DNA of 64,000 bases from Alistipes sp. (GTDB lineage Bacteria; Bacteroidota; Bacteroidia; Bacteroidales; Rikenellaceae), in contig JAGAOZ010000005.1 in NCBI GenBank assembly GCA_017623505.1, forward strand, positions 238,710-302,709, in the 5' to 3' direction. Under the pieces are notes generated by a model. It did no database searches, was not told the origin of the DNA, and saw nothing but the letters and a program-made list of their open reading frames with translations. Below are positions 15,648-25,400 of the stretch, piece by piece (the stretch's first letter is position 1; each line of letters starts with the position of its first letter). The position numbers and the translations under genes are program-made.

Positions 15648-18011
15648 CTAAAAGTCGAAATTGGTCTGCTTGATATATATCTTGTAATCGTTGATGCTTC
15701 CTGGAGCTCCCTCCTCCATACGAGGCAGGTACTCAATACCGCCGATATGGTGAACAGAGCCTAAATCAATAACGACACGATGTGGGAACTCCTTACCACT
15801 CTCGGAGCTCCAATAGGTGGACTCCTGGAGGTCGTACATCTTGTCTGCCGAGCGGTTTACGTTGGTGACATCCTCGCTGTCGGCATATTTGATGGTCCAA
15901 GGCTCACGTGTGATGCGTTTACCATTTTGGTCAATGACGTAGAACTCTGCAATACATGCCAACTCCTTGCCGTCGTGTGCCGAGAGGGCTTCGATGCAGA
16001 GGTAACGACCCTGTGTAGGTCGTTTGAATGTTACGCTCTGCCAGCCGTTACCAGCCCTGAATCGCGAAGAGTGAACGGCGCGTTCCTCCGACAGGTCGAG
16101 GAGGAGACCTTCGTGGCTGTGCAGTTGGGCTTTGACCGATTGGAGATGGTCAATCATCGGCTCGCGCAAGCCCTCGCAAACGGCGTTGCGAGGTCCGACA
16201 ATGTCGAATACCAAAATCTCATTCTCCCCCTTATGTAGCCAACACCCAGGCATATAGAGTGTCTGCTGAGGACCAATCTCCCAGATTCGGCCCAAAGCGT
16301 GGCCATTGACGTAGACTAAACCCTTGCCCCAGCTCTCGAAGTTAAGGAAGGTGTCGCCGACCTTACGAACGTTGAATGTGGCACGATAACAACCGGGGAT
16401 GCGCTGTCCGTGTTGGTCGGTGATAGACTCTATGGGGCGGAATTTCATCGCTTGGTAGGCTGCATAGTCATCGTGGATGTTGTAGACACTCCAGCCTGTT
16501 AGCTTCGATGTGAAAGGTCGGCCGTAGAGGTCTACGGTGAGCTCCACATCTTCGGTTATGCCCTTATAATCCTTGATGGCGCGTCCGAAATTGATGCGTC
16601 CCATTGCCTCGACCAAGATGTCTAAGCGAGCATTCTCGTCGCATGCCGGCAGGGTTATCTGCTTCTCGTTGTGGCGACGGTCCAGTGAACCGATATATTT
16701 GCCATCGATAAATATCTGTGCGAAGTCGTGTACTTCGTTGATGCGCAGCGTTGCGGAGGTCTTGATTTCGGGCAGGGTAGTGCTGTATAGTATCGAGCCG
16801 AAGCCTTGGTCGTACTCCTCCATAGTGCGAATCTGCTCGTCGTATTGGGCTTTAGGGAGATTCTCGAACAGGGGAGCCATCTCAGTAAAGCTGAACTGAG
16901 GGATGCGGACCGTCGGTATCTGCTCCGGTACGGCAATCATCTTTTCGCCATTAGGCATATATTTCGATAGTGTTTGACGCAGAGCCCAATATTTGGGTGT
17001 TGTGTGTCCCGCCTCATTGATAGGGGCGTCGTAGTCGTATGAGGTGACGTCGGGGGCGAAGCCCGGAGAGTTTGCACCTGCCCAATGACCCCAATTTGTG
17101 CCACCGTGCGTCATATAGAGACTGAACGATATATCTTTCGAGAGCATCTCGTCGATGCCGGCTATCATCGTCTCTGCGTCGCGTGTCTCGTGGTTAGCAC
17201 CCCACTTGTCAAACCAACCGCTCCAATATTCGCTACACATCAGCGGAGAGTTGGGGCGCAGCTCCTTCAAGAGGGTGAATTGTTGGTCGATATTGGCTCC
17301 CGCACCGAAGTTCATCGTCCAAATCAGGTCGTCTAAGCCATTGAGTGTGAAGTTGGAAGCCCAATCACATTGGAACAGTGTGACCTCGCCGAAATGTTTG
17401 CGAACTATATCGCGGATGGCTGCAACATAGGTTTTATTTTCGCCATACGAGCCGTACTCATTTTCGACCTGCACCATAATTATAGGGCCTCCGTTGTCGA
17501 TAGTCAGCTCGGCCACTTGTGCGGCGACCTGCTCCTCGAAAATATCTACTCGCTCCAAGAAATAGGGGTCATCCTCGCGTAGGCGAATCTCTCTGTTTTT
17601 GAGAAGCCACCACGGCAGTCCTCCCATCTCCCACTCGGCGCAGACGTATGGTCCGGGGCGTAGGATGACATACATACCGTTCTTTTGGCATAGACGGCAA
17701 AATTCGGCTAAATCGAGCTGCTCCTCAAAGTTGAATTGTCCTGGTTGTTGCTCGTGAGCGTTCCAAAAAACGTAAAGGCAGACGGTGTTCATTCCCAAAG
17801 CCTTACACATCTGGATACGGTGCTCCCAATAGGGGCGGGGGATGCGCGGATAGTGCAGCTCGGCAGCCTTGATTACCAGAGGCTTGCCGTCGAGAAGAAA
17901 CATCTTCTTACCCGCCTTGAAACGAGGCTTGATATACTCGTCAGCCTCAGCGGGCAGGGTGAACGCTACGCACGTGAGCGATAATATTATAAGGTATATA
18001 AAGCGTTTCAT
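15648..18011 (-). CDS. Glycoside hydrolase family 35 beta-galactosidase with C-terminal discoidin-like domain
   Basis: Retaining exo-beta-galactosidase, secreted. Signal peptide to about residue 23 (LPAEA). The GH35 barrel spans about 30-350, with the acid/base in QVENEYGSYG (Glu185) and the nucleophile in MCSEYWSGWFDKWG (Glu261), plus ILRPGPYVCAEWEMGGLPWW. Jelly-roll domains follow (YVNGHALGRIWEIGPQQTLY), then a C-terminal F5/8 type C-like domain (about 640-787; VVIDLGSVHHIGGIEYLPR) that may bind galactosides. The 787-residue length suits a multidomain Bacteroidota GH35. The gene sits between the sirtuin (20 bp) and nitroreductase (2 bp). Enzyme family is certain; the glycan is unknown. Confidence 0.95.
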   Translation of the reverse strand: MKRFIYLIILSLTCVAFTLPAEADEYIKPRFKAGKKMFLLDGKPLVIKAAELHYPRIPRPYWEHRIQMCKALGMNTVCLYVFWNAHEQQPGQFNFEEQLDLAEFCRLCQKNGMYVILRPGPYVCAEWEMGGLPWWLLKNREIRLREDDPYFLERVDIFEEQVAAQVAELTIDNGGPIIMVQVENEYGSYGENKTYVAAIRDIVRKHFGEVTLFQCDWASNFTLNGLDDLIWTMNFGAGANIDQQFTLLKELRPNSPLMCSEYWSGWFDKWGANHETRDAETMIAGIDEMLSKDISFSLYMTHGGTNWGHWAGANSPGFAPDVTSYDYDAPINEAGHTTPKYWALRQTLSKYMPNGEKMIAVPEQIPTVRIPQFSFTEMAPLFENLPKAQYDEQIRTMEEYDQGFGSILYSTTLPEIKTSATLRINEVHDFAQIFIDGKYIGSLDRRHNEKQITLPACDENARLDILVEAMGRINFGRAIKDYKGITEDVELTVDLYGRPFTSKLTGWSVYNIHDDYAAYQAMKFRPIESITDQHGQRIPGCYRATFNVRKVGDTFLNFESWGKGLVYVNGHALGRIWEIGPQQTLYMPGCWLHKGENEILVFDIVGPRNAVCEGLREPMIDHLQSVKAQLHSHEGLLLDLSEERAVHSSRFRAGNGWQSVTFKRPTQGRYLCIEALSAHDGKELACIAEFYVIDQNGKRITREPWTIKYADSEDVTNVNRSADKMYDLQESTYWSSESGKEFPHRVVIDLGSVHHIGGIEYLPRMEEGAPGSINDYKIYIKQTNFDF

Positions 18012-18031
18012 CGCAAAGTCTTATTGTGGGG

Positions 18032-18730
18032 TTATCGTTTCAGTTCGCTAATCAGCTTCTCGGCCAACATCGGAACGCCTTTTCCGGCCTTCTCCTTGAT
18101 GTGGTATATGGTGTTTCGTACCGCTGTGCAGTCGGGCTCGCCGGGGTCTACGACAAATACGGGAACTCCGCTCGGGGCATAGCGCAGGAGTGAGGCGGCA
18201 GGGTAGACTGCCAAAGATGTGCCGACGACAATTACCAGCTCCGCACCCTGCATTATGCGGACTGCCGCGTCGTACATCGGTACCGACTCGCCGAAAAATA
18301 CGATGTGTGGGCGAAGTAGAGAGCCGTCCGGTGCTTTGTCATCCAAGGTCTGCTCCCAGCCGTCGATAGGGACGATAAGGTCGGGGTTCTTCTCGCTGCG
18401 TAGCTTCTTGAGCTCGCCGTGCAGGTGCAGCACTTTTGTTGAGCCGGCCCTTTCGTGCAGGTCATCAACGTTCTGCGTTATGACCTCTACGTCGAACTGC
18501 TCCTCCAATTGGGCAATCGCCACGTGTGCCGCGTTGGGCAGGGTTGCGAGGAGTTCCTTACGTCGTTTGTTGTAGAACTCTATCACTAAGGCTCTGTTGC
18601 GGGCGAGGGCTTCGGGTGTGCATACATCCTCTATGCGGTATTGCGCCCAAAGTCCGTCGGCATCTCTAAATGTCGCCAACCCGCTCTCGGCACTCACGCC
18701 CGCCCCTGTGAATACTACGATTTTTTTCAT
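18032..18730 (-). CDS. cobB: Sirtuin, NAD-dependent protein deacylase
   Basis: Removes acyl groups from protein lysines using NAD. Motifs are GAGVSAESG (9-17), TFRDADGLW, TQNVDDLHERAG with the NAD residues, and catalytic His104 in LHLHGEL. Tyr53 and Arg56 in EFYNKRR match the Tyr-x-x-Arg pair that gives SIRT5 and CobB desuccinylase or demalonylase activity. The four zinc cysteines normally found after HGEL are absent (KKLRSEKNPDLIVPIDG), so this is a zinc-free form. I chose the ATG at 18730; a GTG at 18736 would add two residues. First gene of the operon sirtuin-GH35-nitroreductase. Confidence 0.92.
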   Translation of the reverse strand: MKKIVVFTGAGVSAESGLATFRDADGLWAQYRIEDVCTPEALARNRALVIEFYNKRRKELLATLPNAAHVAIAQLEEQFDVEVITQNVDDLHERAGSTKVLHLHGELKKLRSEKNPDLIVPIDGWEQTLDDKAPDGSLLRPHIVFFGESVPMYDAAVRIMQGAELVIVVGTSLAVYPAASLLRYAPSGVPVFVVDPGEPDCTAVRNTIYHIKEKAGKGVPMLAEKLISELKR

Positions 18731-18920
18731 AACCACACATTTAATCTGCTTCTAAGGTAGTGCTAAAAAATTATTTTTTCAAATTATTGCCAAAAAAACT
18801 CTTTTTTTAGAGCGGTAAATAGTTGTTGTGGGGGCTGGATAATCGGAGATTTTGTTGTGTAAAATTTTATAAATTAGGGTATTGTTCGGCGTTTTTTTTG
18901 ACAAATGCTTGTCGAAAATA

Positions 18921-18952
18921 GTTGGATATTTCATTAAATGTTAGTACATTTG
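18921..18952 (+). promoter_or_regulatory. Putative promoter of the fimbrillin-type lipoprotein
   Basis: GTTG (18921-18924), a 20-bp spacer and TACATTTG (18945-18952) fit the -33/-7 pattern and predict a leader of about 170 nt. Just upstream is a small dyad, GACAA/TTGTC, at 18900-18913. The leader and flank contain three T8 tracts (18892, 19002 and 19056). I looked for inverted repeats flanking the promoter that would allow inversion and found none. The rest of the 397-bp gap 18731-19127 shows nothing else I can name. Confidence 0.6.
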
Positions 18953-19127
18953 CTGTTGGTAATTGACATTGCGTTACAAGAACCGTATTCTCGTTGGTGG
19001 ATTTTTTTTGAGTCTTTTAGCTTGCCAACCCCAATATCGCTCCTGCCACAATTTCTTTTTTTTGCGCCTTTTGGATGAGGACAATGTGTGTGACTATAAA
19101 CCATTTTTTAACCTAATATTAACTTTT

Positions 19128-20691
19128 ATGAAAAAACATCTATTCATTTTGTCTGCAATGGCAGCTTTTGCTCTTGTGGGCTGTTCAAAAAATGAGGGGG
19201 GGAAATTTAGACCCTGAGGCAAAGACTCCTATTTCAATCTCTACAACTATCACTCGTGCCACTGACACTGCATTTGAGGCAGATGATCAGATTGGTCTTT
19301 ATGTGGTAAACCGCAACGGCTCTGCACACGACCTTACAGCAGATGCTAATCACATCAATAACGTCGCTTTCACATACGACGGTTCAGTGTGGACTCCAGG
19401 TGAGGAGGTATTCTGGAAGGATATGACAACACACGCTGATTTCTATGCTTACTATCCATTTACAACACCTATTACCGATGTAAACACATTGCCTTGGAGC
19501 GTTGCGGCAGACCAGAGCAGTGAGGCTGCTTATTTGGAGGGTGATTTCTTGTGGACAAAGGAGGATGATGTTGCGCCTACACTTTCAGCAGTACCTTTGG
19601 CAATGAATCACATTCTCAGTAATGCAATTATCACTCTTGAGAAGGGTACAGGTTTTGATGCAACCGCAGATGAGTGGGAGAATGCGAAGGTTGAGTTGTA
19701 TCTCTATGGTGTAAAGACTGCTGCTGATATCGATTTGGCAACAGGTGCTGTTACTGCAAAGGGTAATGCTACTGTTGTTACTCCTTGGAATACCGGTGCG
19801 AAGACTTACCGTGCAATGATTATTCCTCAGACTATCGCTCAGGGTCAGAAGTTTATCTCTGTCAGTGTTGATGGTATCGTTTACTCTTTGGATTTGGAGG
19901 AGGATTTTGTATTCACTCCAGGTATGAAGCACGAATTCGTTCTTACTATTAACGAGTCAAAGGTTAGTGTTAATTTCACAATGAATCCTTGGAGTAATGA
20001 CGATGAGCCTCTGGAGAGTGAAGCACCAGCATCATCTAACTCTAAGTCAATTATGTTGCCAGTTGATAATTGGGTAGCATTGACAGATGCTCAACTCTAT
20101 GGCTCATATTGGGGTGGTACATCTCCTACTGAGGCTTTGCAGACAGCATATCCTGGTATTACATATTCAGAGAGCAGCTTTAAGCAGGTTGGTGCAAATG
20201 ATAGTTATCCATTGGAGAATATTTGGGATAGAATAAAGACTGAAGATAGTGGTGAGCACGCAGGTATATGGACTTATATGAATTCTCATTGGACAAGTCC
20301 AGATAACCAGACATATCCATTCTCAATCTTTATTGATTTGGGTGGAGTAGTTCAGATGGATGCTTTGCGTTTGTATTGTCGTGGTGGTCGTTCTGAGAGT
20401 TATACACCTGGACAGTTTAGCATCTGGGTAAGTGATGATAACACTCCAGAGGATGGTATTCTCGATGGTTGGACAAAGGTTGCTGAGGTAGATGCTCGTC
20501 ACTCTGTTACTGGAGATTGGGGATATGAGATTGGTTATCAGTATGGCTATTTAGTTGAGTTTGATAGCCGCACCAAGCCTTGTCGTTATGTCCGTTTTGA
20601 GGCTATTGCTGATAGAAATAATGGAGCATACAACAACACTACAACATCTATCGCAGAGTTGGAGTTCTTTGGTGTTCAGCACAATTTCTAA
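19128..20691 (+). CDS. Fimbrillin-like lipoprotein with C-terminal discoidin-like domain, out of frame at a G7 tract
   Basis: Predicted surface adhesin or fimbrial subunit. The ATG at 19128 begins a lipoprotein signal peptide (MKKHLFILSAMAAFALVGC), but that frame stops at 19217. The body is open in the next frame from 19168 to 20691. The two join if one G is removed from the run of seven at 19196-19202, giving GCSKNEGGNLDPEAKTP and a 520-residue protein. Residues to about 285 resemble the Mfa-like fimbrillin family (ITRATDTAFEADDQIGLYV, PLAMNHILSNAIITL, YRAMIIPQTIAQGQ); the remainder resembles an F5/8 type C fold (SIFIDLGGVVQMDALRLYC). The body is intact, so a switchable or recent frameshift, or a sequencing error, is likelier than decay. 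Confidence 0.8.
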
Positions 20692-20713
20692 AAGAGAGAA
20701 AATATTTAATAGC

Positions 20714-20746
20714 GAAAGTGCCCTTTTTCGGGGCACTTTCTTTTTA
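20714..20746 (+). terminator. Terminator of the fimbrillin-type gene
   Basis: Perfect 10-bp arms GAAAGTGCCC and GGGCACTTTC around TTTTTCG, followed by TTTTTAATT, 22 bp after the stop. Confidence 0.9.
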
Positions 20747-20763
20747 ATTAGTAATTATGCGTC

Positions 20764-20976
20764 ATTGCGCGAAATAGCATCTGTTTTCCTACCTGATACG
20801 CAACCACACCCTATGCTATTTCGTGGCAATCTACCTTTTATTTCTCGGCCTTGCTGATACGCAAAAGGGAATTTTAGTTTTTACTTTGTAAGCGGTAGAT
20901 TCCCTTCGCCTTGTTCCACAAGTCGGGGAATGACGGTTGATTAACCAGGATTGAGCCGTTCTATTCAGAACGTCTC
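20764..20976. other. Non-coding stretch rich in dyads
   Basis: No convincing gene. Inverted repeats are CGAAATAGCAT (20770-20780) with its complement at 20813-20823, extended by ATTGC/GCAAT; AATCTACC (20828-20835) with GGTAGATT (20894-20901); AAGGGAAT (20865-20872) with ATTCCCTT (20899-20906); and a hairpin at 20953-20976 with 9 of 10 pairs. TGATACGCAA occurs twice, about 60 bp apart. It could be structured RNA or a decayed element. Confidence 0.45.
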
Positions 20977-21005
20977 TTTCCTTGCTGCTCGCCGCAGGGG
21001 CTGTT

Positions 21006-21143
21006 ACAAAGTTCAAGCAATAAGTTGCTTTGCAACTCTTTTTGTTTTTTTGTACACTACCTTATGAGAATAAATTCTCAACGGCACTATACAAAAAAAA
21101 CAAAAGGTGTCGATTTTTCGACACCTTATTGTTTGAACTTTGT
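21006..21143. repeat. Nested inverted repeats beside tRNA-Pro
   Basis: Outer arms of 18 bp (21006-21023 and 21126-21143; one mismatch that is G-U as RNA) enclose a hairpin with a T-run at 21023-21050, a second inverted pair made of T-rich and A-rich tracts, a small palindrome (TGAGAATAAATTCTCA at 21064-21079), and the tRNA terminator at 21104-21127. The right arm abuts the tRNA-Pro 3' end. Confidence 0.6.
21092..21127 (-). terminator. Terminator of tRNA-Pro
   Basis: Leftward hairpin with perfect arms AAGGTGTCGA and TCGACACCTT, followed by TTTTGTTTTTTTT. Confidence 0.85.
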
Positions 21144-21217
21144 CGGGATACCAGGATTCGAACCTGGGACCCTCTGCTCCCAAAGCAGATGCGCTAACCG
21201 GACTGCGCTACATCCCG
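21143..21217 (-). tRNA. tRNA-Pro (anticodon TGG)
   Basis: A leftward 75-nt cloverleaf: acceptor CGGGATG/TATCCCG, D arm GCGC/GCGC, anticodon stem TCTGC/GCAGA with loop TTTGGGA (anticodon TGG), T arm CCAGG TTCGAAT CCTGG, discriminator A. CCA is not encoded. A full promoter is upstream at 21243-21274. Confidence 0.96.
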
Positions 21218-21242
21218 AGGAAACCTTACTGATTTCGGAGTG

Positions 21243-21274
21243 CAAATATAAAGGGTTTTTTCTTTACAACCAAA
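21243..21274 (-). promoter_or_regulatory. Promoter of tRNA-Pro
   Basis: Leftward TTTG (21271-21274), a 20-bp spacer and TATATTTG (21243-21250): a perfect match to the Bacteroidota housekeeping promoter, 26 bp before the tRNA. Confidence 0.8.
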
Positions 21275-21396
21275 TTTTTTTGCAAAAAAATGTTGCAAAA
21301 GAGTTTCTTAAGGGCGACACATCTGTTGCTCCGAAGCGGTCATTGTGCATATTAACAGCGAGTTACATCACTGTATCGCTACGAAAAAAACTTATC

Positions 21397-22425
21397 CTAT
21401 AAAATCTCCTCCAAACGGGCAACAGGGGCTACATCTAAGCTCGATATCATACCTTGCTGATAGCGGTAATAGCCCGAAATAGCAATCATCGCGGCGTTGT
21501 CGGTGGTGAACTTCAGTTCCGGAATAAAGGTGCGCCAACCGCGACGACGACCCGCCTCGGCAACGGCTTCACGCAGACCCGAATTGGCTGATACTCCGCC
21601 GGCAATGGCTATATCTTTGATACCCAATTTCTTAGAGGCTTTGATGAGCTTGTCAAGCAGAATCTCGATAATGGTCCTCTGGAGTGAGGCACAGAGGTCT
21701 GCTTTGTGCTTCTCGACAAAGTCGGCATCCTCCTCAACTCTATCGCGCAGAGTGTAGAGGAACGAGGTCTTCAAGCCGGAGAAAGAGTAGTCAAATTCGC
21801 CCTTGACGTGTGGTTTGGCAAAGCTGAAAGCCTCGGCATTACCCTCCTTGGCTAAGCGGTCGATAACGGGTCCGCCGGGGTAGGGTAGTCCCATAACCTT
21901 GGCGCACTTGTCGAAGGCTTCGCCCGCAGCATCGTCGATAGTGGAGCCGATAATCTCCATCTCAAGAGGCGAAGAGACCTTGACAATCTGTGTGTGACCA
22001 CCGCTGACCAAAAGGCAGAGGAATGGGAAGTCGGGGTGAGGTAACTCCCTGTCAGGCAGGTCGATAAAGTGCGACAAGATGTGTCCTTGAAGGTGGTTTA
22101 CCTCAACCATAGGAATATTGTTCGATATGGCAAGTCCCTTGGTGAACGATGTGCCGACCAAAAGTGAGCCGAGAAGACCCGGACCACGTGTAAAGGCTAT
22201 GGCATCAATCTTGTCGATAGTCGTTCCGGCCTCCTTCAGCGCAGTATCAACAACAGGGATGATGTTCTGCTGATGGGCGCGTGAGGCGAGCTCAGGGATG
22301 ACGCCACCGTACTTGATATGAACGGCTTGCGAGGCGATAACATTCGATAAAAGTGTAGTATTGCGGATGACCGCAGCCGAGGTGTCATCGCAAGAAGATT
22401 CTATGCCGAGGATGGTTATATCCAT
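21397..22425 (-). CDS. tsaD: tRNA N6-adenosine threonylcarbamoyltransferase
   Basis: Transfers the threonylcarbamoyl group to A37 of ANN-reading tRNAs (t6A), working with TsaB, TsaC and TsaE. The 342-residue ASKHA-fold protein has GIESSCDDTSAAV at the start, the metal-binding motif NHLQGHILSHF, the nucleotide loop LVSGGHTQI, YPGGPVIDRLA and the C-terminal IAGGVSANSGLRE and TDNAAMIA segments. Length is normal. It is divergent from tamB across a 69-bp gap that contains a 23-bp near-palindrome (22439-22461). Confidence 0.98.
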   Translation of the reverse strand: MDITILGIESSCDDTSAAVIRNTTLLSNVIASQAVHIKYGGVIPELASRAHQQNIIPVVDTALKEAGTTIDKIDAIAFTRGPGLLGSLLVGTSFTKGLAISNNIPMVEVNHLQGHILSHFIDLPDRELPHPDFPFLCLLVSGGHTQIVKVSSPLEMEIIGSTIDDAAGEAFDKCAKVMGLPYPGGPVIDRLAKEGNAEAFSFAKPHVKGEFDYSFSGLKTSFLYTLRDRVEEDADFVEKHKADLCASLQRTIIEILLDKLIKASKKLGIKDIAIAGGVSANSGLREAVAEAGRRRGWRTFIPELKFTTDNAAMIAISGYYRYQQGMISSLDVAPVARLEEIL

Positions 22426-22438
22426 ATTTTATAGAGTT

Positions 22439-22473
22439 TTTTTCTATTATTAATAGAAAAAGTGTTATATTTG
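22439..22473. promoter_or_regulatory. Divergent tsaD-tamB control region
   Basis: A palindrome with 11-bp arms (TTTTTCTATTA, T, TAATAGAAAAA at 22439-22461) lies between the two starts and is followed by TATATTTG (22466-22473), a -7 box for tamB. The palindrome covers where the -33 element would lie, so it may be an operator or simply an AT-rich dyad. Confidence 0.45.
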
Positions 22474-22494
22474 TAGGTTAATTTATAAGTATCT

Positions 22495-25400
22495 ATGCGC
22501 AAAGTTATAAAAATATTGGCAAATATCCTCTCGGCAATCATTTTGTTGCTGATATTTTTGCCTATGCTTGTAGCTTTGATTGTAGAAATCCCCTCGGTAC
22601 AAAACTTTATCGTCGATAAGCTCACCAAATCATTGGCTGAGAATACTGGTGTGAATGTTAGTGTCGGTCACGTCAGAGTTGATTTGTTGGGCCGTGTGAG
22701 TGTGGAGGAGCTATATGTTGAGGACCTTCAGCAAGATACTCTGCTCTATGCAGGGTGTGTGCGTACAAGTCTGGCAAGTTTCGTGCGCAGCAGCGACGGC
22801 AACGGCATAGTGCTGGACGATGGTCTGATTGAGGATACACGACTCTTTATTCGCGAGACACCCGAAGGCGTGACAAACGTAAAACAGGTGTTGGACCGTC
22901 TGAGCAAGAAGAAAAAGAAGAAAAAGCCTTTCCAAGTAAATATCACAGATGCGAGGATAGAGAATCTGTTTTTGGTTATCGAGCGTCAGCAACATCGTAA
23001 TCCCGAATATGGTATAGACTACGGCAATATGCGTATTCACGATATATCTGCCGATGTTCATTCGTTCCATTTGCAGGGAACAATCGTCGAGGGCTCGGTA
23101 AGCAATATGGTGGGACGCGAGCAGAGCGGATTTAAGATAAAATCTATGGATGGTGACTTCCATATCGACAGAGGTGTTGTCGATTTGAAAAATATGCACG
23201 TGCAGACCGAGCGTTCGAATCTCTATGTTGAACGACTGCTGCTCAAGGATAGCGACTGGCCCCGCTATAAGGACTTCATCCATAATGTGCCTATGCTCGG
23301 CGTGATACGTAACAGTAGCGTGGTGACGGATGATGTGGCTTACTTCGCACCTAAGATGCGACAGTGGAACAACGAGCTGCTCGATGCCGATATAGATTTC
23401 TCAGGCTTGGTAGTGGACTTGACCGTAAATGTGCATCGTGCGCGCTTCGGCGAGAAGAGCTCTTTCAGTGGCGATGTTAATCTGATAGGTCTGCCCGATA
23501 TCAAAAACACTACGATGCACCTCGATTTGGAACATCTCACGACGACAGAGGAGGATGCGTACAGACTTTTCCACGGCATAACACAGAAGAGCCTGCCGGA
23601 AAATTTGCTGGCGATGGTGCGGCGTGCCGGCACGATAACCATCGGAGGTAATTTCGATGGAGACTTGCGAACTTTTGCAACGAATGCTTCATTTAAGACA
23701 ACCATTGGTTCGGCAAATGTAACGGTTTCGAAGTTTAAACACTACGACGAGGGCGGTCGAGCGCAGGATTATGCGTTCAAGGCTACTGCCGATGTGGAGA
23801 AGTTGAGTTTGAATAAGTTACTGTCAGCCAGCATTTTAGGCGATGTTAGTTTGACGGCATCGTTCGACGGATTGGTCGCAAATGATAAGATTGAGGGCGA
23901 CCTGACCGCCGCTGTTGCGTCGATAGGCTTCAATGGCTATGATTTTCAGGATGTTACAGTCGGCGGATTCTTGGCGAACAAGAGCTTCAGAGGTAGTGTG
24001 AATAGTGCTGACCCGGCATTGAAGATGTCGCTGAGTGGCACGGCAAACCTCAATGATGCTATGCCGGTGTATAATCTGGTGCTGGATTTGGATAACGCCG
24101 ATTTGCATGCCATAAATGTAAATCGTAGAGATTCGCTCTCTACATTGTCGATGAGAGCGGAGCTGTATGCCGTAGGAAATAACTTGGATGATATGAATGG
24201 CGATGTGACGTTGCGTGATGTGACATATCGCTACAATCAGGAGATGTTGCAGACCCCGAACGTTGAGCTGACAGCGCGACGTGTAGGCGAGCAACGCTCA
24301 ATGAGCCTCGAGTCGGAGTTCTTTGATGCAACATTTACGGGCCCGACACGTTATGCCGAGGTGTTGGGTTATCTCTCGACGGCAATGCATAAGTACTTGC
24401 CGGGATTGCCTCCTTTTACAAATCAATATGTGGCACAGCATAATCAGGGATATTCCGCATTGTCGCTTAATGTGAAGAAGATTGACCCTCTGTTGGATGC
24501 TTTGGTGGATGATTTGCAGGTGGCCGAGGAATCAACCCTGAACTTTATGATTAATCCGAGCACAAACCACATATCCGTCAGGATGAAGTCCCAGTATCTT
24601 GAGAAGACAAATAAGGTCTTGGCGACGAATGTGAATGTGAATGTGAATAATGAGGGTGATTCGTTGGCAATGTATGTGAATTCGGAGGATTTGTATGTGG
24701 GTAGTCTTAACTTCCCAAATCTTTCGATTGTTGCCGGAGCCAAAAATGATAAGCTGGGAGTGTCAGCTGTGACTAAATCGGAGCAGGATTCGTTGATGGC
24801 ATCAGTCAATATCCTTGCAAAACTCGGATATAACGCTCAGCATAGACGTTCGGTGACGGTGGATGTGCTGCCGACGACAATATCTAAGGGTCATAAGTCA
24901 TGGAATATTCACCGCAGCCAGGTGGTGCTGGATTCTATGAGAATCGACGTGAAGGATTTTGTAGTAAGTAATCGTGACCAGCAGTTGAGGCTCAATGGCG
25001 TGGCTTCACGTAGCATTGAGGACTCTTTAACGCTTACGTTGCACGACTTTAGCCTTACTCCTTTTGCGACGATTGTAGAGCGTCTGGGTTACCATGTTAA
25101 GGGTGATGGAAACGGTGTGGCTACGATGAAGGCGGTGCTGGATATGGGTGAGCTGACGGCGGATATCAACATTGACAACATATCTGTCAATGATGTGCCC
25201 GTGGCACCGATGAAGTTAGGCTCTCAGTGGGATTTCAAGGAGAATAAGGCTAATGTGCGATTGCGTAACATGCGGGCAAATAAAGATATCATAAGGGGAT
25301 ACTACGAGCCATCGGAAAATCGTTATTATGCTGAGGGCGAGTTTGAGAATATCCCAATGATGATGATAGACTCTATGTTGCGTGGAGTGGTATGTTCGAC

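Follow-up and report, generated by a model that had tools for sequence, protein, structure and literature searches.

A gene for a fimbrillin-like surface lipoprotein in Alistipes sp. is probably a contingency (phase-variable) gene captured by the assembly in its OFF state, and slippage phase variation at a run of seven guanines (G7) best explains the arrangement of its reading frames. The gene lies in a 64,000-bp stretch of DNA, the whole of which is referred to here as the window, from a draft genome (G000) of 1,999,646 bases in 29 contigs that is 93.7% complete. The proposed switch is of a known type, poly-G slippage, in a group where it is unexpected; the evidence from a second species strengthens this interpretation without proving it.

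All features of the locus are on the forward strand of the window. The signal-peptide reading frame (19128 to 19217) begins with an ATG at 19128, encodes the type II (lipoprotein) signal peptide MKKHLFILSAMAAFALVGC, and ends right after the tract at a TGA (19215 to 19217). The codon for the lipobox Cys, assigned by eye and with a simple pattern, occupies positions 19182 to 19184, and the G7 homopolymer, the proposed slippage tract, begins in the fourth codon past it (19196 to 19202). The body reading frame (19204 to 20691) is offset by one base relative to that of the signal peptide; its ORF spans 19168 to 20691 and remains open for 495 codons from 19204 to 20688, with no internal stop before the stop codon at 20689 to 20691. 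The sequence and a frame check confirmed what the preliminary description had reported, namely, an intact signal peptide and an intact body lying one base out of frame, with a G7 behind the lipobox Cys. The 520-residue length that it proposed for the joined protein agrees by arithmetic. A run of six adenines (A6; 19187 to 19192) ends three bases before the start of the G7 and offers another position at which the frame could have changed. Because it is so near, the exact base at which the frame changed cannot be proved from the window sequence alone. An alternative start in the body frame, the ATG at 19192, was rejected: it would yield a protein lacking the signal peptide, and no ATG is found there in the orthologue described below.

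In the body, an Mfa_like_1 (fimbrillin-like; PF13149) domain covers residues 17 to 263 (19252 to 19992) with a score of 203.6 bits (E value, 6.7e-60) against a curated cutoff of 27, which places the protein in that family, and a C-terminal DUF5000/F5-F8 type C-like module (discoidin, galactose-binding-like) covers residues 360 to 490 (20281 to 20673). The DUF5000 match (28.7 bits) exceeds its cutoff of 25, and the F5/8 type C match (27.4 bits) falls slightly below its cutoff of 28.2. The solved relatives are 4k4k (a putative cell adhesion protein) for the Mfa_like_1 domain and 7m1b (a galactose-binding-like protein) for the C-terminal module. The Mfa_like_1 match is far above the cutoff and the lipoprotein signal peptide lies in the adjoining frame, but the window gene differs from other Mfa_like_1 proteins (PF13149; 4k4k) in its extra C-terminal discoidin-like module and in being out of frame as assembled. 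Since the type II signal peptide is not in the frame of the domain, the assembled gene does not encode an expressed lipoprotein. It does show the layout of an SSR phase-variable gene, in which a homopolymer inside the reading frame separates two intact coding parts and its length modulo 3 sets the frame. The same DUF5000 module also stands at the C terminus of proteins at two other loci of the source genome (L024 and L031, both on G000:C14), where the N-terminal domains are different (DUF4998 in one; DUF4959 plus DUF5126 in the other). A terminator-like hairpin with a T tail lies 3′ of the gene (20714 to 20740), identified by consensus match only, with two such matches in the region against a mean of 1.4 in shuffled sequences.

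The DNA from 18000 to 22500 and the body protein were each searched in 180 genomes of the genus, the source genome included. The sole full-length match, on contig C165 of the draft assembly G230, has 72% DNA identity over window positions 19092 to 20692 and scored 710.9 bits in the protein search, compared to 239.5 bits for the next match. This orthologue possesses its own intact signal peptide, MKKNLLMLSMALVTLLAGC, followed by a tract of equal length at nearly the same place (G7, beginning in the fifth codon past the Cys) and then immediately by a stop, with an intact body in another frame. The G7 and the frame break are therefore common to both species, and the A6 run, absent from the orthologue, is not. 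The body is offset by +1 in the window but by −1 in G230, and a single inherited lesion therefore does not account for both. The preliminary description had named, as an observation against a switch, orthologues with a frame break plus further stops in the body; G230 has the break, and its body contains no stops.

The two bodies are identical at 333 of 490 aligned residues (68% protein identity). By the Nei-Gojobori method, dS is 0.81 and dN is 0.23 (dN/dS, about 0.28), and over the first 90 codons dS is 1.54 and dN is 0.11 (dN/dS, about 0.07); differences at codon positions 1, 2, and 3 number 98, 94, and 192. The bodies appear to have diverged under purifying selection, a pattern that would be unexpected for a gene left untranslated since the species split. 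A recent loss of function, with the gene an early pseudogene fixed out of frame, would also join a frame break to an otherwise intact body, and an in-frame allele of the gene was found in 0/2 orthologues (window and G230). However, such a loss would need separate events in two species at one G run, with both bodies kept intact, and the one homologue that looks decayed, in genome G066, has a different appearance, with no start codon, a shorter frame, and no G run. We consider a young pseudogene quite unlikely.

The differing offsets also bear on constant recoding, in which RNA polymerase slippage on the G7 or a ribosomal frameshift would ensure that some full-length lipoprotein is always made. 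The G7 is kept in both species despite differing flanking codons, as recoding would predict, and RNA polymerase slippage could serve either offset. A single programmed ribosomal frameshift could not, and its expected signature, a shift direction conserved between orthologues, is missing (+1 in the window versus −1 in G230), which makes that form of recoding unlikely. Moreover, five lipoprotein genes in the genus, all from other families, simply carry the tract in frame (see below). Recoding of either kind is the most improbable of the explanations considered.

To place the two broken genes among their homologues, frame states at the gene start were read from 56 fetched loci. Across 40 genomes, these loci gave 63 distinct genes that reach the N-terminal half, counting that of the window; the count is restricted to homologues within the fetched loci. 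The signal peptide, recognized by a simple pattern, was in frame in 60 of the 63 genes, the exceptions being the genes of the window, G230, and G066. A G or C run of at least 6 near the start is confined to the first two of these; the other 61 genes carry runs of 2 to 5. The G066 homologue (L234; G066:C1:288293-288943) has no recognizable start codon before the lipobox, a break that does not involve a homopolymer, no G run, and a shorter open frame; it looks decayed, as judged from its sequence. No relatives of the body protein were found in collections of genome contigs or viral contigs.

The G7 is the sole G or C run of at least 6 in the 64-kb window. Across both strands of the source genome, there are 37 G runs of at least 6, with exact lengths of 6, 7, 8, 9, 10, and 12 occurring 15, 4, 8, 6, 2, and 2 times. 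The 22 runs of at least 7 and 18 runs of at least 8 that are observed compare with 2.2 to 7.2 and 0.8, respectively, predicted by order-3 and order-4 Markov models trained on the window. The excess over these models sits in the runs of at least 8, and the four runs of exactly 7, including that of the window, fit the background. Because runs of exactly 7 are not rare in the genome, the length of the G7 alone is unremarkable; what is notable is its place at the frame break and its presence in the orthologue. A plain base-composition null was set aside: it expects about 25 runs of at least 8 (18 seen) but overshoots the runs of at least 6 about 13-fold (about 475 expected, 37 seen).

Of the 21 other runs of at least 7 in the source genome, 19 are located outside ORFs of 80 aa or more. 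A gene start lies within 260 bp of 16 of the 21, and the nearest gene is exported in 11 of those 16 by a crude rule (13 after adding two judged by eye), compared to 19 of 48 window ORFs by that same rule, a figure with evident false positives among the 19. Tracts and exported genes are only moderately associated in this genome, and five of the 11 belong to one gene family. Rfam searches at the gathering threshold on 12 tract loci returned four tRNAs and nothing else. One G10 run (L063, 4375 to 4384; G000:C1) lies within a 92-aa reading frame in an apparent prophage region, with the frame kept. Two of the 22 long runs (G000:C10:110-118 and G000:C17:72-83) are no more than 120 bases from a contig end, which might reflect assemblies breaking at such runs.

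Coding G tracts similar to that of the window were sought in the 180 genomes with a pattern that requires a G run of 7 or more no further than 24 bases downstream of a lipobox-like codon string. In total, 61 places in 44 genomes matched. Most of these are due to chance, because the pattern is also frequent when read backwards, and it is the frame states rather than the count that matter. A crude rule and inspection by eye identified eight of the 61 places as lipoprotein starts; four further crude-rule calls (L276, L294, L299, and L302) were dropped by eye, and L274, a receptor with a signal peptide, was treated separately. Five of the eight are in frame: a G9 in G186 (BACON), G213 (no Pfam match), and G099 and G111 (both DUF4493) and a G7 in G077 (DUF4465). 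The remaining three are out of frame, namely, the G7 of the window, the G7 of G230, and a G8 in G231. The last is a subtilase (Peptidase_S8) lipoprotein (L277, 994 to 1001; G231:C209), in which the G8 lies behind the lipobox and the out-of-frame body stays open for 466 codons to the contig end. For this subtilase, 30 loci were fetched and 28 gave a readable start; L355, which was read on the wrong strand, and L377, with an unreadable start, were excluded. Of these 28 genes, 27 are in frame, with no run exceeding 6, and the G231 gene alone is out of frame and carries a longer run. In-frame G9 runs near the end of the signal peptide were also present in TonB-dependent receptor genes (SusC-like, Plug domain) of G013 (L122), G089 (L166, L177, and L181), and G184 (L274). 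Genus-wide counts of G9 runs (101/101 genomes; 65/80 in the order, the source genome included) were not taken as proof and are discounted, since several relatives look G+C rich and a G9 is expected by chance. In G023 and G089 (loci L146 to L185), nearly all listed G runs of at least 9 are exactly 9 long, a sharp limit that may be biological or technical.

These data also allow a homopolymer assembly error to be weighed, in which the G7 would be an artifact and the gene would be in frame in real cells. An error process would give the coincidence of breaks with G runs that is seen in 3/3 otherwise intact cases, and all three assemblies are drafts. On the other hand, two separately assembled species are broken at one locus with different offsets, and in-frame G9 runs occur in several surface genes of the genus. 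Within the window, 14 homopolymers of at least 6 inside kept ORFs, all of them A or T, leave their frames unbroken (a doubtful 126-aa ORF contains at least four of the 14), and a scan of 13 other window ORFs revealed no further broken gene. An assembly error is accordingly an unlikely source of the frame break.

G runs of a second kind were found upstream of genes for DUF6562 lipoproteins, a multicopy family with 11 matches in the source genome and 12 in G193 (E value, 1e-25). Pure G7 to G9 runs precede several copies, among loci L068 to L071 and L081 in the source genome and L334 to L341 in G193. The five runs in the source genome lie 38 to 73 bp before the predicted starts (the start at L068 is uncertain), and in four of the five elements, L068 being the exception, the tract forms one arm of an inverted repeat with the layout TTTACCC-pyrimidine run, short loop, TTATA-G run-TAAA. 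None of the five other copies examined in this genome (L345 to L349) has an upstream run of at least 6, and for a further copy, in L074, the G12 lies at a distance of about 540 bp. Of the nine readable copies in G193, five have a G9, one has a G8, and three have no such run; overall, 5 of the 20 upstream stretches fetched gave no readable start. The two species can be compared directly at two elements: L070 of the source genome and L336 of G193 are identical at 126 of 127 aligned bases but carry G8 and G9, respectively, and L068 and L340 are identical at 226 of 241 aligned bases but carry G7 and G8. These one-base differences between near-identical flanks show that the intergenic G runs change length faster than the DNA around them.

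If the window locus is a contingency gene, slipped-strand mispairing would change the number of guanines at the tract, a step that we infer, as we do its reversibility and the surface role of the protein. In one length class (modulo 3), the ribosome would continue past the signal peptide into the body, yielding an adhesin that is exported and lipid anchored. In the other length classes, the ribosome would halt a few codons past the lipobox, leaving the adhesin absent from the surface. The preliminary description had likewise put forward an on/off switch by slippage, and that reading is favored over a one-off error or old decay by the G7 in G230, the different offset, the purifying selection, and the similar tracts in some other surface genes of the genus; the switching itself stands as a prediction. 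Several points count against a switch. Seven guanines are at the short end for hypermutable tracts, and the genome contains a MutS_I match, which should lower slippage and, with the short run, speaks against fast switching. The fit of the exactly-7 runs to the Markov background also counts against it, as does the draft state of both genomes, since runs of this kind are exactly where homopolymer errors in a draft would arise.

Campylobacter is the classical setting for poly-G contingency loci. In Campylobacter jejuni NCTC11168, 29 poly-G/C contingency loci with tracts of seven or more are described (PMC4965091). The window locus resembles these in having a G homopolymer inside the reading frame of a surface-related gene, and the number of long G runs per genome is similar (22 of at least 7 in the source genome). 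It differs from them in phylum, in the presence of a MutS_I match, in the location of 19 of the 21 other long runs outside ORFs of 80 aa or more, and in that switching is here a prediction from sequence. In Treponema pallidum, poly-G tracts lie upstream of tpr genes. These resemble the intergenic G7 to G9 runs upstream of the DUF6562 genes in the source genome and G193; the window tract, unlike those of tpr, is inside a reading frame and not in a promoter.

Within the phylum, the phase variation systems of Bacteroides covered in a review (PMC11868660) are inversion systems with invertible promoters, in agreement with the remark in the preliminary description that Bacteroidota are better known for DNA inversion. 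The outcome there and at the window locus would be the same, on/off surface proteins, but the Bacteroides system is recombinase-mediated DNA inversion, whereas homopolymer slippage is proposed here. In Bacteroides fragilis 638R, an extra C in a run of four C's breaks an acetyltransferase-related gene, and the authors suggest that slippage could vary polysaccharide (PMC3090145). That case shares with the window a frame break at a short homopolymer in a surface-related gene of Bacteroidota; it differs in involving four C's and one strain, and the passages of that paper concerning the gene describe neither a second broken orthologue nor a family of such tracts (PMC3090145). No slippage or homopolymer phase variation system in Alistipes or Bacteroidetes was found in the literature searched, which included portions of PMC3090145, PMC7241687, PMC11388281, and PMC11868660, and one may exist in print.

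A broader reading, which we offer tentatively and hold to be somewhat more doubtful than not, is that Alistipes-like Rikenellaceae possess a genus-wide poly-G contingency system. It would comprise tracts within the coding sequence, at the junction with the signal peptide, in genes for surface lipoproteins and SusC-type transporters, together with length-varying G7 to G9 runs, often within an inverted repeat, upstream of the multicopy DUF6562 family. If true, such a system would be a second, recombinase-free mode of phase variation in Bacteroidota. Slippage would then be switching adhesins, and perhaps also nutrient receptors, on and off in gut bacteria of a phylum known mainly for DNA inversion, and surveys that seek inversions would miss this switching.

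The fimbrillin gene is situated between sir2 and a tRNA-Pro gene (window 18032 to 21217). The nearest named matches of the adjacent SIR2 gene are in Rikenellaceae and Alistipes assemblies, with a best identity of 81%. No fimbrillin relative was found in the available flanks of sir2 at 33 SIR2 loci, some of which are short at contig ends, and the G230 copy sits on an 8-kb stretch without sir2. At the closest sir2 locus (L083), sir2 and a GH35 gene are neighbors, and the fimbrillin gene of the window may represent an insertion at the sir2 site.
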